From Sipunculus nudus (lineage: Eukaryota; Annelida; Sipuncula; Golfingiida; Sipunculidae): 64,000 bases of DNA. The notes beneath the pieces were generated by a model. The model saw only the letters and a program-made list of their open reading frames with translations, was not told the DNA's origin and made no database searches. Within the stretch, counting starts at the first letter, position 1. Each line of letters starts with the position of its first letter. Location of the stretch: assembly GCA_026874595.1 (NCBI GenBank), contig CM049316.1:57049676-57113675 (forward strand), read 5' to 3'. Position numbers and translations under genes: made by a program. This document shows, piece after piece, positions 2,224-63,817 of this stretch.

Positions 2224-2371
2224 CTGCTGAAGCTCACGTCGAGTGGTTGCTTTGATCTGAAGGCCAAGCTCTCTTCGAATGACAGCTTTCAATTGCTGCG
2301 GATCCATAATGCCAGCTGGGTCCACATTATGTTTGTTGATAATGCTGATAATGTATTTCTTGTACGGTTTG
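2224..2371 (-). CDS. Orphan HOIP/RNF31-type LDD exon
   Basis: A 148-nt exon candidate on the minus strand, with acceptor CTCCACAG before 2371 and donor GTATAT after 2224. It starts in phase 2 and ends in phase 0. It encodes about 49 residues starting KPYKKYIISIINKHN, then VDPAGIMDPQQLKAVIRREL. This matches exon 12 of the HOIP-like gene at 54860-63817 (EPYTMYLLRLI, IDPAYVMTPEQLK, RREF), with about 15 of 35 positions identical and the same starting phase. It also resembles the region of HOIP after the LCQAHY motif. Unlike exon 12 it has a donor instead of a stop, so a further exon should follow to the left. No other exon of such a gene is visible between 2.4 and 54.8 kb. It may be a relic of a tandem paralogue, or a distant alternative 3' exon of the gene at 55-64 kb. 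Confidence 0.6.
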
Positions 2372-2399: not shown

Positions 2400-3400
2400 T
2401 AGTGCAGGGGTGTATTGCGATAAAAAGACGAACACAGACATATATAATTATAATGTAGATAAACATCATACTGGATATATATTTCATTGACAAATCAAAT
2501 AAATTATAAATATGGGTGAATTCCAATGTCGTGTTAAATTATGTAACCTTGTTTAAGGTGGGAACAATTGTTTTTATTGTTTTTATATTTCATTGTCGCA
2601 ACAGCGAAGAACCATTTTACTTCATCTAAACATTTACACAGAACTGTTCCGTTACAAGGCAAAGTGAAGCAACAAACCAAAGCCATATCATGTCGTTGCT
2701 TGTATTTTCCCCAGCAACCACTTTAGTTTAACAACCACGCCTTCCTGCCTCCATGTTTACCCATTCAGTGTAATCCTTATAATGCAACCTTCGTTTCTGT
2801 CGAAGCATATGCAAAACATGAACATGATTTCAATCAAATATGATTTTTTAAACACTTATCGCATGAATTTCACCGTTCTCTAATAATAAGGATTTCATTT
2901 TGTAAAGAAGAGTTTATTTAAAAAAGGACATGGCTACTGGCCAGTTACAAGGCTACAGTACCGTATTTAAAAATAAATCAACGTTCATATGAATCTGACA
3001 GCAAAACAATTTTCTATCATTCTGCAGGCTCAATGAAAAACTGCAAGACCATCACGCAGAGCTAGTGTAACACTGTCTTTGTTTGTCTGGTTAAAGCATA
3101 ACATATGATGGTCTAAGGAAAATAAACGGTTCCTAAGGCAACAAGAGCCAATGCTGTTATACTGCTACTTGTTAGTCTAAAAAACATCAAACATGTATGC
3201 AAAAATTCCAGATTGCATTATACCATGAAGACAAGTGGCACATGGACATCACACTCAGCTAAATTTGACATACAGGCGATGCATGTAATAACTATGAATG
3301 TTATGACCTGGTAAAAAATATTTGATAAGGAACTTGAACAAAGGATCGAGTGACTTACAGAATAGTCAAAATCATGCATTTTGTCCATAGGCCTCAGACA
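2400..3400. other. No gene or clear repeat seen
   Basis: AT-rich sequence with stop codons in all frames. Nothing recognisable. Confidence 0.45.
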
Positions 3401-31389: not shown

Positions 31390-31404
31390 TCTGGCGAGCG
31401 ATAC
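31390..31404 (+). promoter_or_regulatory. Probable primer-binding site
   Basis: Two bases after the LTR the internal region begins TGGCGAGCGATAC. A PBS starting TGG next to the 5' LTR pairs with a tRNA 3' CCA end. I cannot name the tRNA. The same sequence follows the LTR of copy 2 at about 37937. Confidence 0.5.
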
Positions 31405-36200: not shown

Positions 36201-37448
36201 CAAAATAAATTGTAATAAGAAAAAAATACACTGAAGGATGCGCAGATTATGTGTTAACTTAATTTTTCCTGTACACACAATGCTAAGCTTTAACTCAACA
36301 TCGTAAAACTTCATTTGGTAGGTGTTATTCAATTCTCCAAGCATATAAACACATTGTCACTTCAATAGTCCTACCCGTTACAATCGCAAAGCATATAAAT
36401 ACATTCATTTAAGAATTAGTGATCATGCTTTGCATTTTTTCGCAGTTTTATTTATGATCTAATAATTATTTGTTAGTCAATAAAGTATTAAATTATATTT
36501 CAAGTAATTACATCATTGAATGATATATTACATACTGCTTAATTTACTTAAAATGATTTGACAAATCATACAACAATTGCTTATAGGTAGTGGATCGTGC
36601 GGTTAAACGGTTAAAAACAGTACAAGCAAACAGATCTTTATTTCAGTATGCACTCTAAAAAGGAACACTGGTACTTGATACGAGTAATGAACGTTTGGCA
36701 TATAGCTGCTACGGTGATCCATAGATTTATATTTGAAACGAAATTACATCTGCCATCTTAAAGATGAAGTAGCGCCTGCTTAGGTCTGGGTTTTATAAAT
36801 AAAATGTTCAGGTCATATTACCATGAAAATAGTATAACCAGTGGTAAAGCAAAAGACACAAGAGAAATGTGGGTAGTACTCATATGTTAAAGATAGTCTA
36901 AACGTTTTTATTTTAACGAGGCTGTTGTAAGAATATGGGGAATAATTGAAAAAGGGCATTATATAAGTTATTTCAGTTTTTTTTAAATATCATGATATTT
37001 AGGTGTCATGAGTGGAAATTCTTTATACATTCCAAGGAAAGAGCAACAGAATTCGTCATAACAATTTATGCACATGTGTAAAAGCGACACCCCTCCCCAA
37101 ATAGGGGGCATTGGTCTTCTCGCCGGGTTTATCCATGGTTAATGGCCTATACTGCATGATTTCCGTAAACGTGGACTATCTGGAATGCACGTCTTTCTAG
37201 ATTGGTCATTGCAAGACCGCTGATCTGAAAAATAATAACAACAAATCTGTATTTCATCTTGCGCAGATTGCCTATATTTAGAGAGAGTGTTCGCGAATTA
37301 TTTGATTGGTTCCATTTCCCAGTTTATAATTCCTAAAATAATTGAAATGTAGGAACACATAAATTTTAACACCAATCTTTCAAAAAAGGTCAAAGTAGTA
37401 ATTTCAAATTTGTACTTTTGAGGAATTCCTCATGACACTTCATTATAC

Positions 37449-37934
37449 TGTAACATTCTTGCCCTTTGACCTGGCAAGGGGTGGGGCATCAACACTGATT
37501 GACAGTCAATATAGAGATGCCCCATAGCCAATCACAGGCAGCTAAGGACTTCGCCCTCTGCCCCTCTGGGATAAAATCCCCTTGCCCTGGCAATTCCAGG
37601 CTCTCTTGGATCATCAAGCAGTGGACCCCCTATGCCTGCCCTCTGTGGCAGGCAGAGGGTATATGGCTTCTTTTTCACCTTGGGGTTGGTTTTACGACAG
37701 TGTCGGCTACCCAGGTGAAGAGCCACCAACTTCGAAAGAGCAGTCCTTTTATCTTGCCTGGTAAGTATCTTTCTGTTTCATTTATAAGTTCCAATAATAA
37801 TATGCAGTCCTGATAATTTGAAGGGTTAGGCTCTAAATTTTATTCCAGTAAAAATGTGTTATTTTATCTCTATTAATTGTGCGAGTGCATGTTGCCCAAG
37901 CCCAATTTCCTCCCAGGATAAATAAGCAGCTACA
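37449..37934 (+). repeat. 5' LTR
   Basis: 486 bp, nearly identical to 30904-31389, TGTAAC to GCAGCTACA. The LTR and its 5' flank (ATAC) were duplicated together with the 6.5-kb unit. Confidence 0.87.
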
Positions 37935-40627
37935 TCTGGCGAGCGATACTTTTCAGCTGTTACTTACAGCTAGGAGACGAATTCTGGTAAAAAAAATTGC
38001 TTATTTTGAGTTAATTCTGTTTTTTTTAGCATCAGTATATACTTAAGGGGCTTAGGTTGTAAAATTCAGATAAATAAGCGATCTATTCAAATAGAAACAT
38101 AGTAACAGCTTTAAAAATGCCTAGGTTCCATTTCTTAAGGAAGTTCCTTTTATTCAGTGCCTTTACTAAGTGAACTAGAATAGGGTCTGTTTAAAAATGT
38201 AGGCCCGTCTCTGTTTAAAGAACAATGCGTGTTTTTTTTTACCTGAAAAGGATAGTATTACTTTAGATTCCTTTTGATAAACTATTATAGTAATTTGCTC
38301 TTCTTTGGTTATGAAGCAGTGTATACATTATAGAACAGCGTATGCTTCAAATAATCATCTATTAAATTCAAAATCATTTTTAGGCATACAGTAATCCCAC
38401 AATATTGAACCTTTATCTGTATAATTTACAGTAAATACCATGGCCATAGGGAATTTTCATTGTAGATAAACATGTCATACTATTTTTACATTCTTATGAA
38501 ATGAATGCCTTAATATCATTATATTTCTAATTACTTCAATCTTATGTGAAACTAAATCCCTCGGTGTATAACTTGAATTGTGTGTTCTCACTAGGAGCTT
38601 ATATAAAGAAAAAAATAAAATAAAAAAGTGTATAATAAGTATGTATATAAAATATGTGTGACTAAAAATTAACGCAAGAGAAGTAACAGGGGCTGTATGT
38701 ACCATTATGTGATGTGTGTAAAACTGTAACACGCATCTTATTATTACATTAGGCATAAGCGTTATCCGCAAATATTTAATGCCTCCCATGTAAACAGCCA
38801 GGCAACTAGTGCCTGCAATTGAATACACGTCATATTTTACTTTTAATGAATGACTTTTTATTTGCAAAAGAAAATTAATCATCCTACCAGATAACTTGTT
38901 TATGAAAATGTTCAGGGCTTGATCTAAATTAGCTGGATAATACTGAAATAAAGAGTAACAGCTCAAACTTTTATTATGCGTGGCTGTCTCTTGAATAAAT
39001 GTAACATAGCTTCTATTTTGTAAATATGTATAGATGGAAGCGTAGACTTGACCATATGTATACTGTTTACCTGTGAATGTACTTTGTTAGAAACATAAGT
39101 TAAATACTTGATTACAGTCTAAATTGAATTGTCAGTTAAAATATTTTATAAGCCTTCTCTTTGTGTTATTGTAAAAATCCTAAATTCAGTTATCTTTATA
39201 TTGAAACCAAATGGGTTTCTTGTGTAAAATTTAGCCTACATGCTGTTTTTAAACAAGGCTTTAATTCCTTTAACTTACATAGTGGGCTGAGAAATACTTA
39301 AATTTAAAATAAATTGCTTTGCCAAGTTGACATTGAGAAATGTTACAAAATACCATTCGCCAGCTTGTTAGGCTGTTAGCCTGTTGTATATGCATCATTC
39401 AAAATATGAACATTCAACGGTCACTCTGACCATGGGTTTACCATGTCTCATGACATAATCCCCAGCTGGACAAAACCAAAAGGCCATGCCCAAGGGCTAT
39501 TGCATCACAAAGGGCTGAAGACCTATCACCCCCATGCAGGTGTTACAGTTATCCATTATCACAGGGCTTACCTGTCATCTTATTTATCTCCCTGTAAGTC
39601 GTTAAAACAGACCGGACACTGGCCGGTGATTTAATCCCTGTGCCCCATATGGGGTTATATAACATCCCATGAGGCTGATATTTCAAACAGACTAGCACAG
39701 ATTTCTTAACACCACCTACAGGTACTTGTGTTAAGCGGATTATACACCTGGTCACGAAGTCATGTGAATGTATTATTCCAGTCATCACCTTGTATATCCA
39801 ACATATGGTCTTCATCTTTTTTACCTTGCTCTAAATAATGTTATTAATATTAATTATTATACTTATAATATGTGAAGTCAATATAACTTAATTAGTTGGG
39901 CCTATTGTTCTGTTGGTTTCTCTTACATACCAAATTGATGCTAGCTAATAGTGTTATGGTGTTTATGGTTTGCCTTTAGGTAATCTTAATTATTTGCTAC
40001 AATTAATTTTGAATTCGGATGTTTAACATATAACCAATTAAAAAGATCAGTACTTAATAATTTAGTTCAATCTTTTTAATAGAAATTTAGAAATTCTCAG
40101 AGGATTGCCTCTGAGGCATGCTCATATTTTATTTACACTTTGACTAAATTTATTTGTTGATTTGGGATTTTTTTTCGTTTAATTTTAAAACAAATGTAGA
40201 CTATTAACTCAAAGTTATTTAAACTTTTCACAAACCTATACTTATTAATTACATTTGAATTATAACATTCTTATTTTAAAATGAAACTTTTACAAACTTA
40301 GTTATTTTCAATTATAGTGATTAACATTTATAACTCTACTTGATTAGACAAATTCAGAAGTAAATAGTATGATACTTATAAATTTAATTAAAAGCATTTC
40401 ATTCTGCCTCACATACTGCTGGACTAGATATGCATGAGTATTACTTTGAATTTCTCTGGTGAAATTAACTACCTATAGGCTGGATGTAACATGTCTGACA
40501 CACCTGGAAGGTTTTTTATTGGTATCCTATTTGCCTAGATCTCAGTATCTGGCATAGTACCATTTATTCTGCCTCAACCTTGAGAGTTTTACTAGTCGCT
40601 TTTTAGGGGTTCATATCCCGGCATTGT

Positions 40628-41017
40628 ATGTGCTTTTCCTGGTTGAGTTTGCTATTTAGTTTAGCATATAAGGGCATAAAATATATACCAGTTGCCTTGG
40701 GTGATACCCGGCGTGGTTTTCCCTTCTATGCAGTGTTTTGTGCTGGCAAAGTTCTCAGTCGCTTTTTAGGAGATGTTCTCCGGCATGGAAACAATTTTTG
40801 CCAAGTGTATGTGGTGTCTGACATGCTGCATGTCTGCCTTGTGGGTTTTGCGTATCGCCTAGAGAGTTCTCGATTTTGGCAGGGTACCACCTTTCACCTA
40901 GAGTATTTGTATCTGGTATGGTGGCGCCACTTTCATAGGATTGTACCTGTCATCATATCTAAACCTGGCTATAACATCAACCAGCACAAATTTGTTTCTC
41001 TTAAGTATTCGGAGTAA
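40628..41017 (+). CDS. Hypothetical 129-aa ORF, duplication copy 2
   Basis: Paralogue of 34119-34508 with one amino-acid difference. No domain recognised. Possibly a chance ORF in the retrotransposon internal region. Confidence 0.25.
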   Translation: MCFSWLSLLFSLAYKGIKYIPVALGDTRRGFPFYAVFCAGKVLSRFLGDVLRHGNNFCQVYVVSDMLHVCLVGFAYRLESSRFWQGTTFHLEYLYLVWWRHFHRIVPVIISKPGYNINQHKFVSLKYSE

Positions 41018-43182
41018 TTAAAACAAATTAGATCAATGTGCATACCTAACACACCAGTTAATCTGGCATCACTCATTTAGAAGCTTAACTTGTTTAATTA
41101 GGTTAATTTCATTGAAATCCTATCAATAATATTAAAAGGTGAGCAACACACACAAATACTTAACATGTTGAATAAATACACGAATAAAATGAATAAATAA
41201 GCTGACTTCAAGTTCATGTCCACTCTATATTGCATTTAAGAGTAATGATAATTTAATATAAATAACAAACCACATATACATTGCTGGATGGGTAGAACAT
41301 TTATTTTTGTACCCAAAATACATATTTCACTGCGGATTCGAGTTAAGAAATGTTAATGTTGTGGTGTCAATCTGAGTACTACAAATCAAGTTAGCCATTA
41401 CACATAATCTGAATCTAAAGAGCTTGATAAAAAAGAAATAAATAATGATAATAATCAGAATGATAATAGTCTTCATGATAAAATAATGATGTATAAAAAA
41501 ATAAACTGGAAACTGTAAATGCTAGAAACAGATTAAAGAAAGAAATTCTCATTATTCAAATAAACTAATGAATAGGTAACTAACACTGATATCTAATTTG
41601 AATGTCATATTTACAGATACTTGTAGGGTTATAAACAACTCTGATTTAACAAAATTCTTGGGCAGCACTGCTTTCCGTTTTCCCTAAATTAAAGTCATGT
41701 ATAGATGTTGTATATTACAGGTATACTTTCTTTAACTGATTAAAACAACTGTGCAGTCGTTAAATTATTTGAAAGTATTATTTCATGCATTACTATACTT
41801 AAGTTCACCTGTAATAATATAAGGTCATCTTACATTTAGCAAAGAAATTTCGCTGTTACCTGATTATTATTACTTGGTCAGTTGTAGTTCGTATTTTAGT
41901 GAGAGGGCATGTTTCAGCCAAGCGGGGCTTAAAATACCGTCTAGATTTTGAGGCCAAACAGGGCACAGAAAAAATACTGATTATAAAAAGCTTACCTGAG
42001 GGTAATGCATATACGTCTTAACACTGATCAGATGATGATGCAGTGTGCGAGTGAATCTCGCTGTATTATTAGACCTGTGGTCGAAATATTAATTAGCCCA
42101 GTGAGGGGGCATGTTTCAGCCAGGCGGGGCTTTAAATGAATACCGTTACAGTTGTGAGGCCATGCAGACAGGGCACAAAGAAAATACTGTCCATTTAATC
42201 TGATACGTTGGTTACTTTTGCCAATCTTGTATCTTTGGGCTATACACGGATTGGGGACCATAGTTACCCCTAGTTTTATATACTCCACATAAAACGGAGA
42301 AATAAGCCCGGATTATGCCTATTGGAGGGTCCCTTTATGTAACCGTTGTCAAGTTTATTTAATCATGTATAGTTGAAAACTTAGATCAAGTGTTTAACTG
42401 TTTTAATGTTTTACCAAGGGGCCGCTTATCAGCATTCTTTATGTTTCATTATGTATAAATTTTTGTGAGTTTTTTTTTAAATAGTCATGTCTAGGTAATT
42501 GTCGCAAAAATTATACTTGTGTCATAAGGACAGATACTGCCGCTGTTGTATTCTATTTTCAAAGGCTCAATTTTTGCATGAACCAGTTGTCAGCCATCAG
42601 TGCAGCCTTCCCAGTGTGGTCCGGCTCAGCTCTTCTGCGACAGCAATCTGAACCTGAGTTAACACACCACTACAGCCAGATATTGGACGCTTTTATAAAT
42701 GCAGAACACCTTTAGTTAATACTGAGGCCTGTTGTGCCACCAACTGGACTGATATGTCATTAAAACCTATATGGCCACCTGGCTCACTAATGGACTATAA
42801 CATGTAACAACTTATTGTACCTGGTGCATGTTGAATTTCAGTGATGTGTCTTTGAACGTTTTATAATGTTTCTGAATGTCCAATAAAAATTACACAATCC
42901 CTGAACTTTCAAAACAACTATTAGACTGCAAAGTCCCTAATCACTGGAGGTACTGTGTGGGGGGAGAACACTCCCTACCCGCTGTTGTAGCATTGGATAA
43001 ACCTACCTCCCCCTCCCAACATGGGAGTTAGGGGTTGGGTCGCCGGCTAACAGCCTATACACAGCCTGCCAGCCATGTTTTGGTCATATAAGAAACAAAC
43101 AAAAACAAATTCTCCTCTCCACAGGCTAGATATCATGACTGCTATCGCAAAATTTTCCACTCTAGTGTAAAATTTTCCCTAT

Positions 43183-44171: not shown

Positions 44172-47142
44172 TTACCCTAATCCTTGGTTAATATACAGGT
44201 CTCTTTTTCTGAAAGAGTAGTGTATATACATTGCCAAGTTATTCAAAGCATAGACATTTTTGCATGACATAAGATGAATAAAATTTTCTTTGTTTCTTCC
44301 AACAATATATTCACTTAAAAACTTTCTCCTTAAACATGCATATAAATTACATTCCATTATAAAATGAAATTCATCTTCAATAACACTTATTCCTTCGTTA
44401 AAACAAAAGATACATATACGTTCTGATTCAGAGATTTTATGCCTTCTACCAGTCTCTATTTCAAGATCATGGAGTGAGCATCTTAATCTAGTTAAACTCT
44501 GCCTGTGTTTCACATTTGGCACACAAGACAGATATTTTTTCAGTTTCTAGTAAGGATTTATATTGTATATAAGTTTGTAACCTTTTATTTTTTGTCATTT
44601 GTTGCTGCCATTCTTGTAAACAAATATCATGAGCTCGCTGTTCAAATACTTTGAGGAATACATCAACATCATCAACATCTTGGACAATCCAAATACAACC
44701 AAATCCATAGGAATAAATTAAATTTTTCACCTGTGTTGCCCAATTTCTTCGGCCAACTGCATCCAACTGATATAAACAGTAGTAAGCTTGCTTCACAAGC
44801 CTACTGTCTGGCATGTGTAATATTTTCATCCAATATTTTATCAATTTTATAATACAATATAATTTAACTGGAAGTCTTCCACATTCACCCAAGACAGCAG
44901 CGTTTGGTGCTGATGAATTCAGCTTAAGCAGAAACTTGCAAAATTTAGTTTGTACTCTTTCTATATCATTACATTTACCTCCTCCCCATATTTCACTTCC
45001 ATATGTCAGTACAGGCATTACCATTGTATCAAAGATATGAAATAGTTGAGAGATTGATGTAGATTTATAATTATTAGAATATTTCTTTATTAAACCTATT
45101 GCTTTCTGTGCTTGATTTGCCTGGTATTTGTGACATTTAGACCATTTAGCAAAACTAGAGAAAATTGTACCAAGATATTTATAAGAACTAATAGTTTCGA
45201 TATTACAATTCATAAATTTCCATTTCTCACATTTTCTCAACTTCCCACTATTCCTAAATACAACCACCTTTGTTTTTCCTAGATTCAAGTTCATGTTAAA
45301 TGTTTGACAGAAACATTCTAAAGTATTTATGTGCTTTTGGAGATTCCCGACTGTGTCTGCCAACAAAACAATATCATCCGCATACATAAGCATATGGAGA
45401 TTTGGTGCATCTTCTGTTAAAGATATACCTTGCTACCCAGATTCATGAATCAGATTGTATAGTTCATTCATAAAAATAATAAAGAGAGTGGGACTGATCA
45501 TACACCCTTGTCTGGTCCCAATCTCACATTGAAAGTAATCAGACAGGCCTGTTTCTGATAAAACACATGATTGTAGTTGAGTATACATTGAATTGATAAT
45601 GTTCAGAAAGTTTCCTGTTACACCATTTTTTTGTAAAACACACATCAATAAATTATGTCTAATGCTGTCGAAAGCCCTGGAAAAATCAACAAATAATGCA
45701 TAAACTCTGCCTCGTGGTTTTGTAATGTATTTTTGTATAGTGGTCATAAGAATAAACATGTTATCAGTAGTACTACGGTTCCGCCTGAATACTGCTTGTT
45801 CCTCCACAAGTATGTTCTCACTTTCAGCCCATTTTACCAACCTGTTATTTAATATTTTACAGAAAATTTTCCCTAAACAGTTTAATAATGAAATTCCTCT
45901 ATAGTTATTAATATCACACCTGTCACCATTTTTGTAAAGAGGAATAATGATTGCCTGTGCCCAGTTTTTTAGGATATATTCCACAACTAAGGATTTCATT
46001 AAATAATACTACCAACATGTCCTGAAGGTTATCAACATTATCTTTGTACAACTCTGCAACCAGCCCATCTGGTCCAGGTGCTTTGTTATTTTTCATTTCC
46101 CGTATCACCTTTGTTATTTCAAAAGAGGTTATTCTTTTATTCAGTTCTGATTCTTGAGAACTTTCATGTGCATCCATGTTTGGTATAAATAATTCTGTGA
46201 CATGTTCAGAAGTATTATTTGAGTAGTTTTTATCAGTATACAACTGTTTAAAATGCTGATACCATTCCAGTTTTGATATGTTGTTTCTGTGATTAATGTA
46301 CCCTCTGATGCGTTTCATTGTTTGCCACATTTCCTTAGTTGATTGACATCTCAACAAGTTCTCTTTTATTTTCCTCTCGTGTATTTCTTTCTTTTTAGCA
46401 CACAGATTTTTGAATACCTTTTTCTTTTCTCTATATACATTTAAGTCGGCTTGTTTGTTTGAAAGTCTGTATTTGTTTAATGATTTGTACTTTTCATGTT
46501 TGGACATTTTGCACTCATGATCCCACTATTTTGGCTGTGTTCCTAATTTCACTGCCCCACTGTTTTTTTTTCTTGTATGTACATTTTGCAACATGTTGCA
46601 AAAGTAACATAATTATGTCAGCTGCAATGGTAGGGTTTTGATTAACATTTAAATAAAATTGATCCACAAAATTTGACACATTATCATCATCTTCCCATGC
46701 AAACTGATTTGTTTTCTGTTCTCTGTATTGTATCCATGGGTTTTCTATAATGGCTTCATCCCCTGTGGACAGCCCCCTTTCTCTCCTAGTACACAGATAA
46801 GATGATATAGGGAAATGATCAGACAGATCCATATTTAAGACCTCAAACTTAGTAGAAGAGGTAAACATATCAGTACTAACAATAATATAGTCAATGATGC
46901 TCTTTCCAATTCTTGAGCAGAATGTATATTCCCCTTGCTGGTCAGAATCGAATCTACCATTTAATATGCATATATTTAAAACAAAACAAAGTTCTTGCAG
47001 GGATTTACCAAACTTATTAACTATTTGGTCTTTACTTTTTCTTTCTCTTATTAAAGAAATATCATTAGATTCAAACCATGGGAAAGAGTCATTATCACCA
47101 GTCAGAACATCCTGTAGATATCCCATTCTTGCATTAATGCAA
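44172..47142 (-). pseudogene. LINE endonuclease-reverse transcriptase ORF, broken
   Basis: Read from 47142 leftwards: endonuclease C-terminal half (NARMGYLQDVL, SIIDYIIVS, LSDHFPISSYL); linker and RT start in 46507-45923 (NNKAPGPDGL); RT in 45999-45433 (IIPLYKNGDR, NYRGISLLN, ALFVDFSRAFDSI, GTRQGCMISPTLF). The catalytic box YADDIVLL is in 45393-44488, which continues with NLGKTKVVVF, YKYLG and VLTYGSEIW. The C-terminal module in 44522-44172 has ICIFCF...FHFIMEC, a CCHC-type pattern. Frameshifts at about 46510, 45960, 45410 and 44500 inactivate it. The catalytic residues FVDF and YADD are intact. The clade is not assigned with confidence. Confidence 0.85.
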
Positions 47143-47580
47143 GATGTAACATTCTTGCCCTTTGACCTGGCAAGGGGTGGGGCATCAACACTGACTTCGC
47201 CCTCTGCCCCTCTGGGATAAAACCCCCTTGCCCTGGCAATTCCAGGCTCTCTTGGATCATCGAGCAGTGGACCCCCTATGCCTGCCCTCTGTGGCAATCA
47301 GAGGGTATATGGCTTCTTTTTCACCTTGGGGTTGGTTTTACGAAAGTGTCGGCTACCCAGGTGAAGAGCCACCCACTTCCAAAGAGCAGTCCTATTATCT
47401 AGCCTGGTAAGTATATTTCTGTTTCATTTATAAGTTCCGATAATAATATGCAGTCCTGATAATTTGAAGGGTAAGGCTCTAAATTTTATTCCAGTAAAAA
47501 TGTGTTATTTTATCTCTTTTAATTGTGCGAGTGCATGTTGCCCAAGCCCAATTTCCTCCCAGAATAAATAAGCAGCTGCA

Positions 47581-48854: not shown

Positions 48855-49600
48855 CTCTGGAGAAAAACAACACTTAATTCACAACAGTCTGTTTCACGGG
48901 GTGCGACCCGATCATCAGGTGAATGTGGTTAGAATGAAGCTAACGGCGTGGTTTGGAAAGCCGAGACTTTACGAGATTACGAGATTATGCTTTGTGCGAT
49001 TCGGGTCGGGGGGGGGGGACATGTGAAAGACTGACACTGATCCTATTGTCCTCGGGTGCACAATAGGATTGGTCGGGGTACACGTGCGAGACTGGAACAA
49101 AACAGGACTGGGCAAAGAGGTTATTTAAGTTGCAAATTTTATAAATAATACAAAGATAATACCAGGAAGCTCAATTAGCATATTGAACTGATTTCTAATA
49201 GGGTCCTGGAAGCAGTGAACATATCAGTAGTATATATATGATAAAAATATGATATGATAGAAATATACAAGGCAAATATACAAATATAAAATATAAAAGG
49301 CAAATATACTATATTATACATACCAAATGCAATCTACTCGGTAAACTCACCATGATGTAGTGGTAACGCCATGTCCCTCATCACTGCAGAGCAGTGAGAG
49401 AACAACTGCCTGAACAGGTCTGCCCAGCGGATCCTCGTTGGCGGGGGGGGGGGGGGGGGGGGGTTAAGGGGGCACGCTAAAAATAGGTACGAATGCTAGG
49501 TTTTAAAATATTTCAGGGTGAATTTGTTTTGATGGCGGCACTTGGAGAGAATTTCAGCTCTTGAGTTCAACAATGATCCAGGGGGGGGGGGGGGGGGGGG
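48853..49600 (-). repeat. Penelope pseudo-LTR-like repeat, downstream copy
   Basis: Shared with 50789-51440: 'ctggagaaaaacaaca', the hammerhead region, 'aagctaacgg', 'tttacgagattacgagatta', 'cacaataggattggtcgggg' and the final ORF segment (SLLNSRAEILSKCRHQNK). This copy carries about 96 bp near 49350-49445 that the other lacks, and G runs at about 49009-49018, 49442-49463 and 49580-49602. Confidence 0.85.
48869..48930 (-). ncRNA. Hammerhead ribozyme (type I, short stem III), copy A
   Basis: The minus strand shows CTGATGA at 48918-48912. Stem II is CGGG (48910-48907) with CCCG (48900-48897) and a 6-nt loop, followed by GAAA at 48895-48892. Stem III is ACA/TGT (48892-48890 with 48886-48884) with a GAC loop, preceding U at 48883. 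Stem I pairs AUUCAC (48924-48919) with GUGAAU (48882-48877), and a second CAC/GUG helix lies beyond a UAA bulge. Predicted cleavage is between 48883 and 48882, after GUU. All core nucleotides fit the consensus. The 10.1/11.1 pair is U-U instead of G-C. Confidence 0.82.
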
Positions 49601-50680
49601 GGGCGTAGCTATAAGTAGCTTTTCAGACAAGCAGAGATCACACTTCCTAGTCCCACAGAAGTAAGGTGCTGCCTTGGCAGATATTTCCCAGGAGAGCTTG
49701 TAATTGATATTGTTGTCTTTTAGTGACCAAATATGTTTAGACAGTTCAGTATTTTTAGCGTGGGATCTGTTCCGAAAGGATTGCTTGTGGTTATTGTATC
49801 TTGTCTTGAAGTCACCTTCAGTACACCCTATGTAGTGTTTCACGTCATTGTCTGTTATAACTGTTGCCTTATAGACAATGCATTTCAGCTGACATTGACC
49901 ATTCATAGGACATTTGTCTTTTTTACGGCAGTTACATTGTTTGTGAGGTACATTCACAGCATTGTCAGTATTTAAAACCTTCATATTATGTTTGCTGACC
50001 AGGTTAGCCATGTTGGGTAGACAGCTATAGCTAATTTTCAAATTGTTCCTGTTGAATAACCTGTGGTACCTGTGATGTTGAGGGAAGTGTTTTTCAACTA
50101 GTTTCATGAATTGTCTGCCAATGTTGGTTTTTACATGACGGCTGTAGGGTGGATTAAACCATATTATTTTCCTTTTCCTGTTTCTTTTACTTTTCACTGT
50201 GGGTTCAACATATTTTAAGCTTTCTGAGAAACCGCTTTTCGCTAAAGCTTTGTCATACATGGGTTTGGCTTTCATAAATAGCTCTTTATTGCAGGAGTTG
50301 TCAGATACACGTTTGCTGATCATCATAGGTATCTGCCTAATGATAGCTGGGGGGTGATTGGATTGTGCGTGGATATAGAGAGGTTCATTGTTCGGTTTTC
50401 TGTAAGGGTAGAAGATGTCATTTTGGAGGTCAAATGTTACGTCTAAGAAATCTGTGCAGGTCAGGTTAGTTTCAATGATTATCTTTAACCCAACATTGGA
50501 AAAGAGTTTGATCATTTTCTTACGGGTGCTGTCTGCTTTGGGTCCAGATATGTTTGGGAAACAACCTAAACCGTCATCACGATACAGGCCTAGAGCATTT
50601 TCACCAAATTCCTTTTTCAACATATCTAGGATGTATAAACCAACAATTTCGCATAATTCAGCGCCATCAAAGTTTCCCAT
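49496..50680 (-). CDS. Penelope-like RT (C-terminal part) with GIY-YIG endonuclease
   Basis: 394 aa from the first Met. The frame is open a few codons further upstream, to the (TA)n junction, so the protein is N-terminally truncated. RT remnant: DVTMGNFDGAE and the catalytic box LYRDDGLG (residues 32-39), then FLDVTFDLQND, PYRKPNNEPLYIH and SNHPPAIIRQIP. A Cys-rich segment CNCRKKDKCPMNGQC lies near residue 250. The GIY-YIG nuclease follows: IVYKATV, HYIGCTEGDFKTRYNNH and ELSKHIW, with CDLCLSEKL after it. This RT-GIY-YIG order is the canonical EN+ Penelope-like architecture. A homopolymer encodes eight prolines near residue 359. Without the RT fingers it is presumably inactive. Confidence 0.85.
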   Translation of the reverse strand: MGNFDGAELCEIVGLYILDMLKKEFGENALGLYRDDGLGCFPNISGPKADSTRKKMIKLFSNVGLKIIIETNLTCTDFLDVTFDLQNDIFYPYRKPNNEPLYIHAQSNHPPAIIRQIPMMISKRVSDNSCNKELFMKAKPMYDKALAKSGFSESLKYVEPTVKSKRNRKRKIIWFNPPYSRHVKTNIGRQFMKLVEKHFPQHHRYHRLFNRNNLKISYSCLPNMANLVSKHNMKVLNTDNAVNVPHKQCNCRKKDKCPMNGQCQLKCIVYKATVITDNDVKHYIGCTEGDFKTRYNNHKQSFRNRSHAKNTELSKHIWSLKDNNINYKLSWEISAKAAPYFCGTRKCDLCLSEKLLIATPPPPPPPPGSLLNSRAEILSKCRHQNKFTLKYFKT

Positions 50681-50705
50681 GGTGACGTCAAAACTAGTAT
50701 GATCT

Positions 50706-54859: not shown

Positions 54860-56303
54860 TTAACTTGCCTCCTGTAAATAGTCTTCGGCTATATCCCGTG
54901 GTTCCCTGTTAAATTCTCTTCTCAGAATTACTTTCAGCTGTTCAGGTGTCATTACATATGCAGGATCTATCCCGTTGTCCTTTATAAGCCTCAACAGGTA
55001 CATAGTGTAAGGCTCACTGAAAATCAATCAGACATTGGTTCTGTAACTCAAGGTTATATAAGATAGAATGCTACGAAAATCTAGTTGTGAATTATCGTAT
55101 ACAGCTCTTCAATGTCCAGTCGCATCAACAAGCAACCTGTTTCACTTCTTTTAGATAAACAATAATGCACTTTAAAGCCATTGACTGGAACCCAGCTATG
55201 TAGCTTGGAGTTATCTACGTCACAGTAAATTCAGGGGCAAGTCCAGGATATTGGAAAGGGGAGGGTCAAGGAAGACTGAAAGAAGACCTAAAAAGAGTTC
55301 CTCTGGTCAGGAAGGAGGAGGTCATGGTCGCAAAATTTGGTTTGAAACCCTTAAAAAAAGGTTGTTTCGGCTCAATAAAAGAAAGGAACGGGTCTTGATC
55401 CCCCCCCCCCCCCCCCCCCCCGGATCCACTACTGGTTATAGGTTAATCGTACCAAGGAGCTGATACAGCCTTGTAGATCGGTGTAATGCACTAACTCAAT
55501 TTTGCAAATCGGAGTTAAGAACTGACACTGTGATGCAGTTGGGTTGTATGCAGTCTCAGATTTGTAGTTCGGAGTTGCAAATTGACACAGTTGCGAAAGG
55601 GGTACACAGTGGCAAGGTTTCGTTACTGAGCATTACACATTGACATGGATGTGAAGTTCGTATTAAACATTGAGTAGCTGTAATTGCGACACAGAGAGCA
55701 AGTACATTGGCGTGTCTGTGGTGACAAATGCGTTTACTCACCACAGTTGAGTCCCTTTCACAGCTTCATCTTTTAGAACATCCTGATTACAGCCACGCGT
55801 CTTAGCCTCATGTTCCAACCAATCTACGTACCCAAGATGCTTCACTTTGTTTTTCTGTTTAAATGTATCATTTTATGTAAATATTTTCATGCCACAGCGA
55901 GGAAACAACATGATAAAGATATGTTTTCTTCAGAGTACATGCTTCCTTCATAAATTGCATAACAAAATTATGTAATTTCGATGTACATATTTTGAATCCA
56001 CGCCTATGAAAATACAAGACACATCAGGACGGTTAATGAACGACATAAAAGTGCGTCCTTCGAATTAAAGCATCAGCACTTGAATATGAGATAATACCAG
56101 TATTTATTTATTACAAGCATATGTTATTCATATTCAGCGTAGGATATTCCATTCAGCGTAAATTACCTTATCTTCAGCAAGAAACTTACTTTCAAAAATG
56201 CTCTTATCTTTTTACGAGGACTCTTCCTAGCGTAGAAGATACAGTCACGTGGGTGGTGACAATGGGGATCCTTGGAGCAGTCAGCCGTCTTGGTGCAGCC
56301 CTG

Positions 56304-56370
<67 letters not shown>

Positions 56371-59300
56371 AATTTCACTTTACTTGACAGAAATTTTAGT
56401 GTTGATGTTGACTGATCCTACCAATTCAGTGAACGTGAAATTATTCTGATTTTACAATGAATTTGGTAGTACCATATCTAAATATCATGGAAATATTTGA
56501 TGAAATATTTGGTATTGAGTTTGTGCAACTGGATATGGATATGAATATGTTTGGCCTGTTTACCTGAACATAAGGCCCGTAACATCCATCACAGAACTGG
56601 AATGAGCAGGAGAAACACCTCCGCTGGGAGAAGGCTCCAAGATTAATGTCACATACCGAATCGCACTTCGGACAGTCTTAAATTAAGATAGTATTGTTAC
56701 TTGAGACAGATTCACAGATTTCAAAGATGAAGCATTTTCTTGAAACAAAGGAATAAAAGTACTTATCAGTTTTCATCATTTGCACAACATCCTAAAGGTG
56801 AATACATTTATTTTATCTCTATTTCTTTGACGTGATTCTGGTCAGCAAATGAGTGTTAACTGGACTACTTAAATCGTCTCATGTCTTGCAAATGTGAAGT
56901 AACTGAAATCTTTTGCGAGTCGGTTCTGGTTGCAGTTATTAAACATCAAACAAAACAATCCTTTTGGAGTAAAGTCTTTTTTAAACAAATGACTTCATGG
57001 CAACATGAATGTAATATTTTAGGGCATACATATGTTATCATCCTTCAGTGTTTTCGGGACGTCTGTTTGATGATCAGCTCCGTTTACCTGTCAGAAATAG
57101 AAGAGGACAACCACTGAAACATTAGATAACTGAGATATGATAATCTATATATGAAAAATACAGTAACAAAGAAAAGTAAAACTGAAAAAGACTTTTTTTA
57201 TCACTAAAAGCTTTCTAAAATTGCTTTTATACGAACTTATTGATAGCAAGTGACACTATCATTCATTTATCAATAAAACACTACAAAATATATGAATATG
57301 ACTATTTTCATATAACTTTTCCAGTAAGGATATTTGCTTCGTGCTTGTTCTCTGATAATAGGAGATTCCATATAGTGAACAATGTTTAAATATATAAGCC
57401 CTGAAATTTTAAAACATACATATCAGGAAATAGTGGGCGCCTATATTATTAATACTTGCGGTGCTTTGGGAATAGTGTTTTATCATTTTGTTGATGCAAT
57501 ACTTGAGTCTTAAATTCTCATAATATATAAATGTACATACAGTTTTAAATAATTGATATATCATTTTTATAAAAATCACGAAATATCTTCCCTTTTCCGA
57601 GTTAATTCACGCAGGTATGAAAAACATCAGTTCACCTCACATTCACTGCGAAATTTCTCTACACCAGGGACATTGATGCCAGATTCTTCCACGGAAGATA
57701 GATCAGTTTCATTCACAGGATTCCTGTCGTTATCATTCTGGTATCCTGACTTTGTGGGGACCGTTTTCCCAATGATGGAGTTGTAGCACATCAGGCAGAT
57801 ATTTGTAGTACCAGGGTTCATGAAGGTACATGTAGGACATTCCCTCTCTGTCGTGCTGTCGTTTGTATTTTGTGGAACCTAATGATATAAAATGAAACAG
57901 CGTTTAAAAAAAATACAGGGGAAAATGCGTCAAAAGAAAATAAGTACTGATGAAATATAAACAAATAATATAATGATTTAGGACACAGGAAGAAACCACA
58001 ACTATAAAACAAACGATTGCTGTCATCTGATGGCCTCATAAATGGAGGAAAATGTGAGTAAAAATAAAAAAAAACAGGTGGCGCCACTAGTCTCTAGAAA
58101 CTCATGAAACTATTCATGATCAGTGAACACACGAGGATTTTAGGACACCAGATGAAACTCGGTCTGTTGAGAAACAGGTACCACTGATGTTTTTTTATTG
58201 CAGTTTAAAAATATGGACAAAATTCATAAAATAAACAGAACAAAATATAGGTGGCGCCACCAGACTCTAGCAACTGATAAAAATGCACATGACCAATAAG
58301 CAAGACACAAAATATGGCAATCCATGCGTTAACTATTGAGATACTGAAGCTTTTTTGATAAAATTTTTAATTATTATTGATTGCACAAACAAGCCCTTAA
58401 ACCTGGAGAAAATGGGTCGCAGTAACCTGATATCAGGTTTCCATGGAAAATTTCGAAAAAGACCCTTGGATTTTAATTTAAATGTTTCTAGGTCAAATTG
58501 TTACGATTTGTGGCCTTTTAACGGACAACTAGTCTGGCCGTCCTGATGGGCGACGGACAAAGCGGGATAGATGTACCTTAGATTTATAATCAGCTGAGCT
58601 AAAAACTGACAGAAGAAAAAGTTACTTCCTATTTGACCAATTGTACAAAAACAGTGAATGTCTATGATTGGTTTTAAGAGAAAGTCTTGTCTGTAAACAT
58701 ACGGTTTCCCCTAGATCACTGTGATTCTTGTTGGTTTCCAGACTGTTGAAGCACATGTTGCAGACTGTGTCCTTGGGGGAGCTCAGAAAAGTACAAACTG
58801 GACATAAGACAGTTCCCTCCTTTACACCTGGCATCTGGAAACAATACTGATTACATGACACTTATTATTGAAAAACTTTCTTGTAATGCTTCACTATTCC
58901 AGTTATTCTTGGTTACTTCGTTAGGTGCCACCGTTAATGCTAAAAACATTCAATTTTAACAAACCAAAAACTACAAGTAATAATGGATTATTTCATTAGT
59001 AAATGCAACTTAACTGATATTGAAGTATAAAAGCGTTTGATAAAAAATGCGTAGAACGTAAATAAACCTCTAAACCAAATAAGCGTGTTGGTTGGTAATT
59101 TGGTTGACTAGGTTTCACAAACCTCAGTTTTATGACCTGGAGCTGCTGGTGAGTCTAGTGGTTCGGCACATGATATACATAGCTCCGCATCTGAGAGATT
59201 GATGAACTGACAATGTTGACACCTAAGTTCGTTTTCCATCCAGCTGTCACTTAATTCCTGAAGCATATAAATCAGCATTTACCTCTTTAGAATATTTACA

Positions 59301-62300
59301 CTGCCTTTTCCGACACTCAATTATATCAGGTGTATTTTACATTTACCTTCTTACAAAACCAAACCGTTGTTTCACGAAATGTAATATAATTACTTCTCAG
59401 TGCTACGTACTCCATCTGTCACAACGTGTAAAAACGGAACAAGACCCGCTTTTTATCTTTAAAATTTATTAAATAGTTACCGGGTTCAGGTCAGAATTCC
59501 CTTCCTCGCCAATTTGTTTCACTCCTGAGGTTTCAGAGGTAGGTGTATTTGACCAAGAGTTATATGACAAGGCGCTGTCTTGCTCAGAGACCTGCGATAT
59601 AGGCCCATCGGCAGGATCACTTGACCCACGATCACCTGTTTCGGTAAAATACGGCAAAGATGTCCCTGTTACATCTGGCACGGACGAAACTGGCTCGGAA
59701 ACTTGTGTTACAGGGGCACACTTTAAGGTAGGAATATTTGCCAAACACACATGTGGTACGTGGGCACCAGTCTCAGATGTGGCAGAAGAAGCAGGTTTTG
59801 GAACACTGTCAACAGGGTCACAATGAATGCTATCGACAATATCACATTGCTCAGAAGCACGGGAAGCTACATGAGCAGGAATACGAGAACCTAGATCTTC
59901 TGAATCAGACTGATTTACTCCAGTAGAATATAACTCGGGAGCATGTGAACCAGAATCCGGAGCAACCTTTGCACAATAATCCTGTTGAGCAGAATAAGCC
60001 TCGCCAGGAACACGTGACACGGGATTAAATGGCAAAGGAGCACGTGGCAAAGGATCAGCCATTACGTGACCACTAGTTTCAGGATCAGCTGCCTCGAGAA
60101 CAGTTGGTCCGGGATCCCCTGTAACTGGAACATGTACCACGGGATCATGTGACTCAAACACACGGGATCCATGTTCAGTTAATTCAGAACCAATTGAAAA
60201 AGTATGAACCTTCTCAAGAATATAAGACTCCTGAACCAATGTCAGAGGCAAATGCACAAGAGGATCAACTGATACAGGGGCAGGAGGCAAAGGATCATCT
60301 GCTTCGGATTCACGTGACACAGTATCAACTGACTTTGGAACATGTGTGAAAATCGCATCCTGCCTTTGGTCATGGGGCATCCTGACGTCTTCTTTGACAG
60401 GATCTTGGTATTTAGAATATGTCTCAGTTGTATTTTGCAGCTGAACCTCTTGAGCATGCTCAGGACAAGCTGTTTTTCCATACTTTGGGTCCATATAGTC
60501 TGTGCTGACAGCTTTGGAAGATAAGTGGCTGGTACCATGAAGTACAGTTCTTTTTGGTCTGAAGATAAACATGACTTTCATTCCTATATTAATGTTACAG
60601 TTTGCTAATCTGATCAGATAAAATTCATGTTACTTCATAAAACGAATTCGGTTGGATACAAACAAAAATTCAAAATCTCAAACCCTTTGATGTGATAAGA
60701 AGGAAGGAACACACACCATACTCACACACACACATATATATATATATTTATTCGATTTTATTATGATAATGCTCATCAAACAATTACTCATTCATTCTCT
60801 GCGGATTGTAGCTATAGCAAATCACTTACTGATAATGTAAAGGTACCAGGCGGCAAATCATGTCATGCATTACATGGTTTCCATTCAGGAAGCAGCACAG
60901 TTCAGCCCGAGCCAGAAACAGTTCTCCTAATAATTCCGTATTTTCGCCCTCCAGACTCAATGTCGCTTCCTGGTGGAGAAGACCTTCTGATGCTTCAATA
61001 CTATATCCAAAGAGGTTCAGTATTTTCATATGTCCCTATATTGAATGAAAATGTATATTTCATATTTTTAAAACAACACTGATGTTAGTATCAAGTTTAA
61101 TTCTATATTTCAATCCTAAAAATTTGCAGGGTTCTCAGCAGTTCATATAAACACATTTTGCGTTATTTCCTGATGTATTTTGAAAAACCAAGGGTATTTA
61201 TTCTCATATTCCTTGACTTTTCCCCTGGCTGGGAAAATGGAAACTCTTATTCCAGAATTAAAAATGTGTGAAACCTGAGCTCATGCATGAAAACTATACG
61301 TTTTACCTGAATTGTCATCAAATACGTCAGATAAGAATGATCCGCGAAGCTTATATAATCCCACATCTTTTTCCGCTCATCTTCCGGTTTCATTAAGTCA
61401 AGACCAATGGAGTACAAGTAATCCAGTGCTGCCAAGAGCCGTTGTCCCCAGTCAGAAGTCTGGAACGAGCAGATCTTCTTTATCTCAATTTGACCCAATC
61501 ATGGATACATGTAGGTAAATCGAGTAGTGAGCAGTGACGGTTTATTTGGTGATAATAAATGCATAAGCTATACAGGCTGGGAATCCGCGCCGGAGTACCG
61601 GAATATGCCGGCAATATCCGTGGAGGGCCGGCAAAATGGTGGCTTTTATTGCCCTATGTACGCTATGAATGAATGCATGAATGAATGAACATACATATTC
61701 TGGGAAACAAAGACTCAGGCTCGTATATTCCACTCATTCATACACAGTGGCGTCATTTATCTTCAAGGGAGGGGGGATGACTCGCAGGATCGTGAGGTGA
61801 CTCGCAATCGGGGGGGGGGGGGGGGATGGGGGGGGGGGGATAGGCGTTGAGGGTAGTCAAAATTTGGATAAAACAGACATATACATATATACCTTTAACT
61901 GTCCGTGTGGCATATCAAATGTATTTCAATTAAGTATAAGGTTTTAAAAAATAAGGTATATGTTAAGTCTAAACCATTTAGATATTAATATTTCATTCTA
62001 AACTTATAAATGGAACCAAAGTCTATAATTCTATTTATTTATATATTTCTTTTGAAATATACAAATATTATTTTCTGAAAAGTGGGGGGATGATTACATT
62101 GACCATCCCCCTTTGCCAAAAAGTTGGGGGGGGGGATATATACCCCCATCCCCCCCCCTTTATTGACACCCCTGTTCATATACACACAAACACACACACA
62201 TACATATATATATATATACACGTCATTCCTTTCATTATACAACACATTTGGGGAAATGTTGATGACCATGATAGTGATCATCATACATGATGATATACAC

Positions 62301-63817
62301 CAATTAAATAAGAGCAACTGCCTTTACAGAACACTTTACACTTATATCTCTTTTGCCAGATATCCACGCGTCCCGTATTTCTTTGAATTTTGGAAGTCTC
62401 ATAAATAGGTGAGAAAATTGGTAAAAAGTAGAAAATATATACGTTTAGCAGCTGATGAAACTGCCATGCTCAATAAACAAAGGAAGGTAAAAGGTAATCC
62501 CTGCATTAATTTATCAGGTACCGGATCATTTGCATCCAATTTATCATGTTGTTTATTGGTGGTTAATTCACATTATAATTATGTTACCACAATTTTATTT
62601 ACAGATGAATTCTTAGCCATCATACAGTCCAGATATGTATGCAGTATCTTCTCTTTTTGTTCAAAATAAAATTAACATCAAGGTGTTTCGTATAAATTCC
62701 ACCTATACAACTATCCATCATTGAGAGGAACGTAGTTATTAAGTGTTTTATAGAGAAATTTTCCAAGATGAGTATGAAAGTTACTTTTGTATATTCCATT
62801 ATAAACTAGTTTCCATTTCACCTCGATAGTATTTTCTCGGTTTCTGTTATACCACACTTTCTGAACTGTGAACGTGTATATATTTCTATCATTTTAAAAG
62901 TATCCAATGCCTTTAAACTATGCACAGTTACAACACTGTCAACTTCATATCCTTCATCCTGTAATTTTGTATACTCTTTAGGCTATAAACCCGTCTCTCA
63001 AAGTTTTTGGAATGGCCTGTTTTAATGCTATCAAAAATATCAAAATATCTGATATATGTGATTCATAATGCATTCTTCTCATGAATTTTTTCATATGCTG
63101 TCTGTCCATGGATCCTTGGGGGGTTGGGGGATATTAGGTAGCCCTCTAACCCTGAGCCCGCAGGGTCTGCTTACCCCCCCCCCCCCCCCAAACATACCAC
63201 CTGGATCCGGCTCTATAGATCAGATGACTTGAGGTCATGATGCAGTTGGGCTAAAAGGAGGTATCCGGTAGAATTCTACGCGCAAACACGCAGAATACAT
63301 CACTGCATTCGAAAAAAAAAACAAAAGTTATGAGATCAATTCAGGTGTAGGGAGGTATTTGTGACAAATGGAACATCTTACCTTGGCATTCTGTTTTATC
63401 AGATTTTCGATGTCTAAGACCAAATACTTTTTTCGTAAGGAAACTCGTAGTCCAAGAAAACGGTCTGGGTTGTCTGGCGCCAATCGAAGACGAAGTTTAC
63501 ACACAACCGTTGTTCTAATTTCTCGCGCGTTCTGAAAAGAATTGTTTCAGAATTGAATAAAATAACTACCCGAAGATGCTGCTCAAACTATCCTGTTCAA
63601 AGGCTGTGCCGGGAACTACAACTGTAATACTGCACCATTCGAACAAAGTCGAATATTATATTTTATGAATCAAATTGAAGTTACCCGAATTTCAATTCTT
63701 GTGACTTTATCCTGATGAATATCCTGTATTGAATTTATTCCCTCTAAAACTGAAATAGTAGAGATAATACCTGCATATATCGTATACTCTTACCTTCAGG
63801 TCCTGTTCGGACTCCAT
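54860..63817 (-). CDS. RNF31-like: HOIP/RNF31-like protein lacking UBA-RING1-IBR (12 exons)
   Basis: Exons in order: 63817-63794, 63531-63382, 61459-61307, 61035-60830, 60558-59481, 59257-59123, 58834-58703, 57878-57641, 56676-56564, 56300-56190, 55854-55742, 55016-54860. All junctions are GT-AG and phases agree, giving 869 aa. The start is ATGG after CACC. Residues 9-178 match the HOIP N-terminus and PUB domain (YLVLDIENLIKQNA; LNLFGYSIEASEGL; LFLARAELCCFLN). Residues 179-537 form one large low-complexity exon rich in DP and VP. Residues 538-705 hold three NZF fingers (CQHC..CISC, CPVC..CNMC, CPTC..CLMC), two with the ubiquitin-contacting TF pair. Residues 707-743 are RING2-like. HHPRDCIFYARK (exon 10) and residues 781-869 match the HOIP C-terminus and LDD. 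HOIP makes linear ubiquitin chains in LUBAC. Here UBA, RING1 and IBR are not found and the catalytic Cys is Phe. Confidence 0.85.
56308..56368. repeat. (TA)n microsatellite at splice acceptor of exon 10
   Basis: About 30 TA units on the gene's intron side, ending about 7 nt before the acceptor CACACCAG|GGC (56300). It occupies the place of the polypyrimidine tract. Overlapping ORFs of repeated Ile-Tyr are artefacts. Confidence 0.9.
56564..56676 (-). other. RING2-like exon without the catalytic cysteine
   Basis: Encodes CPKC (707-710), CDINLGAF (714-721), C726, C729, C734 and CDGCY-type ligands, aligning without gaps to HOIP RING2. HOIP's catalytic Cys (885 in human) lies 11 residues after the CPKC motif; here that position is Phe721. 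The HOIP His two residues later is Gln723. The exon begins in the frame needed if exon 8 uses the donor T|GTGAGG at 57641. The other donor, GAG|GTGAAC at 57636, shifts the frame and leads to a stop in exon 10. Confidence 0.8.
57900..58610 (-). repeat. Mollusc-type dispersed repeat in intron 7
   Basis: On the minus strand it shows the same blocks as 27460-28480: 'cttcagtatctcaatag', 'atggattgccat', 'tggtcatgtgcat' and 'ctggtggcgccacctat'. On the plus strand, 58400-58600 has 'taacctgatatcaggtttcc', 'tttctaggtcaaattgtta' and 'gacggacaaagcgggat'. It lies wholly within the intron between exons 7 and 8. Confidence 0.65.
61460..63381 (-). other. Intron 2 with G/C runs and unassigned sequence
   Basis: Contains G runs at about 61811-61840, G/C runs at 62087-62158, a CA/TA microsatellite at about 62185-62220 and a C run at about 63173-63189. 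Between 62700 and 62980 the minus strand has an open stretch (KLQDEGYEV, VVTVHSLKALDTF) that may be a transposon relic; I cannot name it. Confidence 0.5.

Follow-up and report, generated by a model that had tools for sequence, protein, structure and literature searches.

A tandem family of HOIP/RNF31-derived genes with a replaced RING2 catalytic centre in Sipunculus nudus

The linear ubiquitin chain assembly complex (LUBAC), of which HOIP (RNF31) is the catalytic subunit, is described in the cited part of PMC8245127 as the only known linear-ubiquitin ligase. In the sections cited here, the C885A and H887A variants of human HOIP were found to be inactive and the Q896A variant was not (PMC3730226), and alanine at Arg935 and Asp936 abrogated linear ubiquitination (PMC7125101). 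The closest described products are isoforms. The short isoforms of LUBEL, the Drosophila HOIP orthologue, are reported to lack the RING-between-RING (RBR) region, and an adapter role was suggested for them by the authors (excerpt of PMC5090701). For Aplysia, the cited portion of PMC9334734 gives a TRIAD-less HOIL1 isoform and lists one HOIP gene. A search of open-licence PMC papers returned no HOIP pseudo-ligase and no expanded RNF31 family. In this report, we describe a HOIP-like gene in a stretch of 64,000 nucleotides of the 1.43-Gb Sipunculus nudus genome (the window, C11:57049676-57113675) together with its tandem paralogues. Judged from its sequence, the window gene is real and intact, is descended from HOIP and is stripped of the parts needed for catalysis. 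The family to which it belongs is very probably inactive at the old catalytic site and kept by selection.

Gene structure and domain content

The gene is composed of 12 exons on the minus strand (63817-54860) that are joined by 11 phase-compatible GT-AG introns. All splice sites are present, and the spliced coding sequence of 2610 nucleotides encodes 869 amino acids without an internal stop (Table 1). An earlier note on this DNA had predicted 12 exons of compatible phase, and this model, with Phe as residue 721, was borne out. The frame is kept at exon 8 by a phase-1 donor, GAAT/GTGAGG, at 57641/57640. The same note had described intron 8 as AT-rich and free of RING1, IBR and UBA; that description stands, and the limits are corrected from 56677-57635 to 57640-56677, exon 8 ending at 57641.

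The two other frames of exon 5 contain 31 and 11 stops. Using a first-order Markov model of the make-up of exon 5, none of 2000 simulated sequences was open in any frame, and none of 2000 sequences simulated for the whole coding sequence was open in frame. The intact reading is therefore beyond chance. Neither a disrupted frame nor a lack of purifying selection, either of which would mark a processed or decayed pseudogene, was found for the window gene.

The order of domains in the protein was found to be PUB, three zinc fingers, RING2 and LDD. A phmmer search of the PDB with the whole protein returned 12 distinct sequences at E values up to 1, all of them RNF31, which is the sole significant solved relative of both ends of the protein (RING2-LDD, E 1.2e-10; PUB, E 4.1e-7 with the whole protein and 4.6e-8 with the PUB piece alone). 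The identity to human HOIP is 23/57 over RING2 positions 871-930 and 39/122 over PUB. In Pfam only sub-threshold domains were obtained on the window gene, and the Pfam PUB family itself was unmatched. The zinc fingers alone gave weak matches to the PDB, the best at E 0.12 (RBCK1 NZF); their order and number (ZF, NZF, NZF) agree with those of HOIP. The PUB and RING2 named in the earlier note are recovered, as are two of its three NZFs, and the LDD is clear by phmmer but just under the Pfam cut-off; the first finger (exon 6) is without the T-F/Φ motif and is, by position, the plain ZF of HOIP.

The catalytic centre and the tandem cluster

In the alignment to human HOIP, the nucleophile Cys885 is replaced by Phe721 and His887 by Gln723, as the earlier note had claimed. 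Asp936 is replaced by Lys769, and Gln896 and Arg935 are kept. The human RING2-LDD alone is reported to retain some activity with UbcH5C (PMC6963773, cited in part), and for this reason the loss of RING1 alone would be no proof of inactivity. More weight falls on the loss of the nucleophile. We infer that the predicted proteins fold and form no ubiquitin thioester at the ancestral site.

The substitution is not confined to the window. Genome searches gave 16 matches to the LDD profile, all on C11, and at least 30 matches to the window RING2-LDD, all but one within 56.953-57.357 Mb; with a second query there were at least 35 matches and at least 13 RING2 exons within C11:56.95-57.36 Mb. All 13 of these exons, a lower bound for the cluster, were read. 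Position 885 is Phe in 12 of the 13 and Leu in one (56.999 Mb), and in none is it Cys. Position 887 is Gln, Glu or Asp and never His. Leu882, a new Arg888 and a new Cys878 are invariant in 13/13. The codons for these residues vary, Arg888 being encoded by CGG, CGT, AGA or AGG and Phe885 by TTC or TTT. Asp936 was found in 1/13 cluster copies (57.181); among the RING1-bearing relatives, the following exon was read in 10, and all 10 have it. The signature that we propose for the pseudo-ligases, F-x-[QED]-R-x-C plus Cys878 with no RING1 found, is present in the window gene, with Leu for Phe in 1/13 members.

In a tree built from RING2 and the next exon (27 rows, 77 columns, LG+G4), the 13 cluster copies form one clade (SH-aLRT 97.1, UFBoot 99), many other nodes being weak; the partner of each RING2 exon was taken to be the nearest such exon (57.249 with 57.244, 57.181 with 57.178), which is an assumption. 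Their sequences show that these 13 RING2 exons arose once. Two further copies without Cys885 both carry Cys878 and join this clade weakly (80.1/68); the one at 19.176 Mb has Asp at 885, and the one at 57.385 Mb has Lys there and retains His887. Copy D (57.0435-57.0468 Mb), whose RING2 exon has degenerated beyond alignment, is outside all counts. Additional matches to PUB exons or RING2-half exons lie beyond the core cluster at C11:56.305, 56.352, 56.834, 56.845 and 56.897 Mb, and the family is therefore probably larger than the 13 counted RING2 exons. A search for related loci in other genome contigs gave 5 pattern-matching stretches and no relative; in viral contigs there were none.

RING1 and IBR were searched for at several scales. 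Across the whole window, a human RING1-IBR query gave nothing convincing (best E 1.1) and the best match to an own-species RING1 was at E 0.15; in the same window a human RING2-LDD query matched exons 9, 10 and 12 (E 5e-6, 7e-4 and 0.012). Intron 8, translated in its three minus-strand frames, matched no Pfam family, and UBA_HOIP (PF16678) was unmatched in the window protein and in this intron. The statement of the earlier note that no RING1, IBR or UBA exon is visible in intron 8 is upheld by these searches. Locally, four RING1/IBR queries were applied to the window, to cluster copies and to three control loci. The three control loci were matched with E values from 1e-6 to 1e-42, the lowest being a self-match, and in the 5/13 cluster members tested the best E values were 0.15 (window), 0.09 (copy A), 0.047 (copy B), 0.11 (57.016) and 0.008 (56.954, with a stop inside the match). 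For D, 57.385 and 19.176 the best values (5.5e-4, 0.016 and 0.004) all fell on their own RING2 exons, and the 19.176- and 57.385-Mb stretches held no convincing RING1. None of the genome-wide matches falls at 56.3-57.4 Mb, whether obtained with a human RING1-IBR-RING2 query (26, of which 14 are in RING1/IBR), with RING1-IBR from the species itself (18) or with UBA_HOIP (7). A phase-1 start of the RING2 exon is common to the window gene, copies A, B, 56.954 and 57.016 and the 16.6-Mb gene described below, and this shared start fits the loss of an exon block.

The RING1, IBR and UBA exons might instead have been dropped from the assembled intron, an error of assembly or annotation for which the 6.5-kb tandem duplication (98-100% identity) and the large satellites make the window a prone region. 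However, a check for an assembly gap at 56.7-57.6 kb found no N anywhere in the window. RING1 and IBR are equally undetected in 56.954, 57.016, A and B; the matches to exons 8 and 9 lie close together in A (roughly 0.8 kb) and B (roughly 0.6 kb); and all 13 copies carry altered RING2 residues. We consider such an artefact barely credible.

A search for a complete RNF31 elsewhere in the genome found RNF31-type genes at C11:16.6, C11:66.4 and C16:27.56 Mb. Both Cys885 and His887 are kept in all 11 RING2 exons read from RING1-bearing loci, at C11:16.612, C11:66.414, C16:27.564 and eight positions at C11:18.71-19.18 Mb; these regions contain RING1 matches, which for 19.033 lie some 11 kb upstream. 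The read set does not extend to the HOIP-like exons at 18.90 and 19.04-19.05 Mb. PUB, NZF, UBA, RING1, IBR, RING2 and LDD were all matched in the 16.6-Mb gene, which is likely the RNF31 orthologue. The locus at C16:27.56 Mb looks complete; PUB and LDD were not looked for there. An OTULIN-type peptidase gene is present on C14. The region C11:18.70-19.19 Mb is a second expansion, with eight intact Cys/His RING2 exons, RING1 nearby and one dead copy (GGDNM) at 19.176 Mb.

Selection, interfaces and possible functions

Among 11 copies of the RING2 exon (the set without 57.181 and 57.204), the proportion of nonsynonymous differences (pN) was lower than that of synonymous differences (pS) in 55/55 pairs, with medians of 0.31 and 0.75. 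For the window gene and the 56.954-Mb copy, the ungapped matches of exons 9-12 contain 47 synonymous differences over 107 sites and 75 nonsynonymous differences over 382 sites. The corresponding rates are dS 0.66 and dN 0.23 (Fisher p 1e-6), and the dN/dS relative to this nearest copy is about 0.35, a ratio between paralogues that mixes lineages. The dN/dS check thus gave purifying selection among the paralogues. The reading of the window gene as a pseudo-E3, put forward in the earlier note, is supported, and it is strengthened because the loss is shared across a clade of tandem copies on which purifying selection acts.

The alternative that the gene is a neutral relic, a decaying and functionless partial tandem duplicate of RNF31, draws on the decayed copies close by. 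The window itself holds a remnant at 2799-2224 (-), missed in the earlier note, with a stop in its exon-11-like part; the 57.016 copy is decaying, with a stop in exon 3 and Cys930 changed to Arg; and a PUB exon at 57.190 Mb, perhaps part of the 57.181 copy, contains a stop. However, the window gene has 869 open codons and every splice site intact, pN is below pS in every pair compared, and the new residues survive synonymous change. A neutral relic is very unlikely.

These decayed copies nevertheless weigh against a family that is folded and kept by selection, as does the mixing of lineages in the dN/dS, and several other observations must be set beside them. The 57.204 copy is without the CPxC start in the aligned stretch, and the stretch examined at 56.954 yielded no recognisable PUB exon. 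The splice models of B, 56.954 and 57.016 were attempted around exon 8 and not completed. At the scale of the genome the human query also missed the diverged RING2 exons of the cluster itself, so the failure to find RING1 genome-wide counts for less than the local tests. The LDD family PF18091 scored 22.4 bits with the C-terminal piece and 17.8 with the whole protein, below the cut-off of 23. Of the LDD zinc-ligand positions, which we take to be 969, 986, 998 and 1001, a Cys is aligned at 998 alone, with another Cys near 969; the LDD may be partly unfolded because these positions are mostly changed. Finally, an adaptor or decoy role is being proposed for predicted proteins known from DNA alone, and we advance it tentatively, with less than even confidence.

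The earlier note had assigned the binding of OTULIN and SPATA2 to the PUB domain. The residues of the pocket do not support this. Six residues of human PUB that contact or line the pocket for the PUB-interacting motif (PIM) of OTULIN (Ile78, Tyr82, Asn85, Tyr94, Asn102 and Val104) are all changed in the window gene, with Asp in place of Asn102. In the cited parts of PMC4017264 and PMC5009064, N102D is reported to abolish OTULIN binding by human HOIP and N102A to abolish SPATA2 recruitment. We infer that the window protein docks neither OTULIN nor SPATA2 in the human way. Among 12 cluster PUB exons, position 102 is Asp in eight (window, A and six others), Ser in two (B and 57.375) and Asn in two outlying exons (56.305 and 56.352); 57.016 has a gap there and was dropped from the count. 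Both RING1-bearing loci that were read, at 16.6 and 66.4 Mb, have Asn102. The 16.6-Mb gene keeps 5/6 pocket residues and the 66.4-Mb gene 3/6 (Ile78, Tyr82 and Asn102), so a changed pocket alone is no mark of a dead copy.

The NZFs, said in the earlier note to bind ubiquitin or NEMO, retain the features of the former function in part. According to the cited section of PMC9294000, T-F/Φ is the ubiquitin-binding NZF motif, and human NZF1 contacts NEMO through Glu374-Arg375-Pro376-Arg377, after the last Cys. The motif is retained in exons 7 and 8, as T, F and, for the hydrophobic Φ, M, and is lacking in exon 6. In exon 7, the positional equivalent of NZF1, the NEMO-contact residues are FNSL in place of ERPR. 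Ubiquitin binding by the two NZFs is plausible, and among the HOIP contacts compared, that between NZF and ubiquitin is the one predicted to persist.

These interfaces bear on the possibility that the protein is a dominant-negative LUBAC subunit that would enter the active complex through its PUB and LDD contacts and block it. PUB and RING2-LDD are retained, and HOIP-type genes that keep the catalytic residues and an OTULIN-type gene exist in the same genome. The UBA of HOIP is the known contact for HOIL-1L and SHARPIN. UBA was not found in the window gene, its PUB pocket residues are changed and the NEMO contacts of NZF1 are not conserved. We regard a dominant-negative role as doubtful.

A further possibility is that the protein is not dead and that the invariant Cys878 and Arg888 form another active or ligand site. 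Cys878 is present in 13/13 clade members and in the Cys885-less 19.176 and 57.385 copies, and the partial activity of the human RING2-LDD with UbcH5C (PMC6963773, as excerpted) is in keeping with chemistry at a relocated site. However, His887 is replaced in 13/13, no E2-binding RING1 was found, and the new Cys is more simply explained as structural or as an additional zinc ligand. Relocated chemistry of this kind is highly improbable. More broadly, the family may consist of fast-evolving HOIP-derived ubiquitin readers in which the old active site has become a new conserved site (Phe885, Arg888 and Cys878), serving as a peptide or ubiquitin pocket or, most boldly, with Cys878 as a relocated nucleophile that acts without RING1. 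This proposal we hold to be unlikely.

Under the pseudo-E3 reading, an ancestral HOIP copy would have lost the exon block between the NZF exons and the RING2 exon (UBA, RING1 and IBR), and the G-G-C-M-H centre of RING2 would have been replaced by x-G-x-F-x-[QED]-R with retention of the RING2 cysteine frame. The altered copy would then have multiplied in tandem at C11:56.95-57.36 Mb and have been retained by selection. As an adaptor or decoy, the product may read ubiquitin chains and restrain or redirect signals from the active HOIP-type genes. Such a role would probably lie in immunity, to which the tandem expansion and the known roles of HOIP alone point.

A family that keeps the outer domains of HOIP and the RING2 frame, with a conserved residue in place of the nucleophile, would be a natural pseudo-ligase system and would offer a direct test of the roles of the HOIP PUB, NZF and LDD domains without catalysis. 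Such a family further suggests that, in this animal, linear-ubiquitin signalling has been elaborated by duplication in both directions on one chromosome, dead copies lying at 57 Mb and copies with the catalytic residues at 18.7-19.2 Mb.

Window features and comparison with known systems

The features of the gene and of its relatives are collected in Table 1. The remnant last exon near the start of the window is similar to copy B by eye and passes the Pfam E3_UbLigase_RBR cut-off that the main gene just misses. Elsewhere in the window, adjoining satellite arrays lie at 5454-9673 and 9886-19695, the repeat unit measuring roughly 101-140 bp in one and roughly 77 bp in the other. A 6.5-kb tandem duplication (29661-36201 / 36202-42710; 98-100% identity in the listed blocks) is either recent or an assembly duplicate, and a third copy of a 300-bp part of it lies at 47193. 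By eye, a LINE-like element occupies 44175-47297 (-), a 314-amino acid piece of which matched reverse transcriptase in Pfam. An open frame of 402 amino acids at 49499-50704 (-) has the look of a Penelope-like reverse transcriptase/GIY-YIG protein by eye and has no Pfam match. Rfam and tRNA scans of the window returned nothing.

Table 1. Exons, remnants and related loci (window positions unless C11 or C16 is given)
Feature	Position	Strand	Evidence or remark
Exon 1 (MESEQDLK)	63794..63817	-	ACC ATG G start context; GT donor, phase 0
Exon 2, N-terminal part of PUB	63382..63531	-	Splice model, PUB homology
Exon 3, PUB core with changed PIM pocket; Asp98 = human Asn102	61307..61459	-	
Exon 4, C-terminal part of PUB	60830..61035	-	Splice model, PUB homology
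Exon 5, long Ser/Pro/Val-rich linker, 1078 nt	59481..60558	-	Single open frame
Exon 6, zinc finger at HOIP ZF position, without T-F/Φ motif	59123..59257	-	
Exon 7, NZF-like finger with T-F/Φ (CPVCTF...CNMC)	58703..58834	-	Under Pfam cut-off
Exon 8, NZF with T-F/Φ (CPTCTF...CLMC) and linker, phase-1 donor	57641..57878	-	
Intron 8, expected site of HOIP UBA-RING1-IBR exons; 70% A+T	56677..57640	-	964 bp
Exon 9, RING2 core, Phe721 for Cys885, Gln723 for His887	56564..56676	-	
Exon 10, RING2 second half / LDD start (CHHPRDC), Lys769 for Asp936	56190..56300	-	
Exon 11, LDD	55742..55854	-	Splice model, homology to RNF31
Exon 12, LDD C-terminus and stop	54860..55016	-	AATAAA 117 nt past stop
Exon-11-like remnant, in-frame TAA 2730-2728	2707..2799	-	E 0.42 alone; assigned from its order, strand and acceptor
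LDD last-exon remnant of another cluster member	2224..2370	-	Pfam E3_UbLigase_RBR 24.4 bits, cut-off 23
RING2 exons of cluster	C11 56.954, 56.999, 57.016, 57.106 (window), 57.131 (A), 57.152 (B), 57.181 Mb		
RING2 exons of cluster, continued	C11 57.204 (+), 57.218, 57.232, 57.249, 57.282, 57.357 Mb		
UBA_HOIP matches, n = 7	C11 16.6, 18.7-19.05, 66.4 Mb; C16:27.59 Mb		

The window protein shares with HOIP/RNF31 the PUB domain, the ZF and two NZFs, the RING2 cysteine frame, CHHPRDC, the LDD end and the order of domains. It differs in the changes of Cys885 to Phe, His887 to Gln and Asp936 to Lys, in the changed PIM pocket and in the long Ser/Pro-rich exon 5, and UBA, RING1 and IBR were not found. 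SHARPIN is a LUBAC-related protein without an RBR ligase core and in this respect resembles the window gene; it is, however, related to HOIL-1L rather than to HOIP and has neither PUB nor RING2-LDD. The RBR-less products of LUBEL are isoforms of an active gene, whereas the catalytic Cys here is substituted in separate genes, and LUBEL, as presented in the cited part of its description, is without PUB. The Aplysia HOIL1 product, in the portion of the source cited above, is likewise a case of RBR loss in an invertebrate relative of LUBAC, but it is an isoform, and one of HOIL1.

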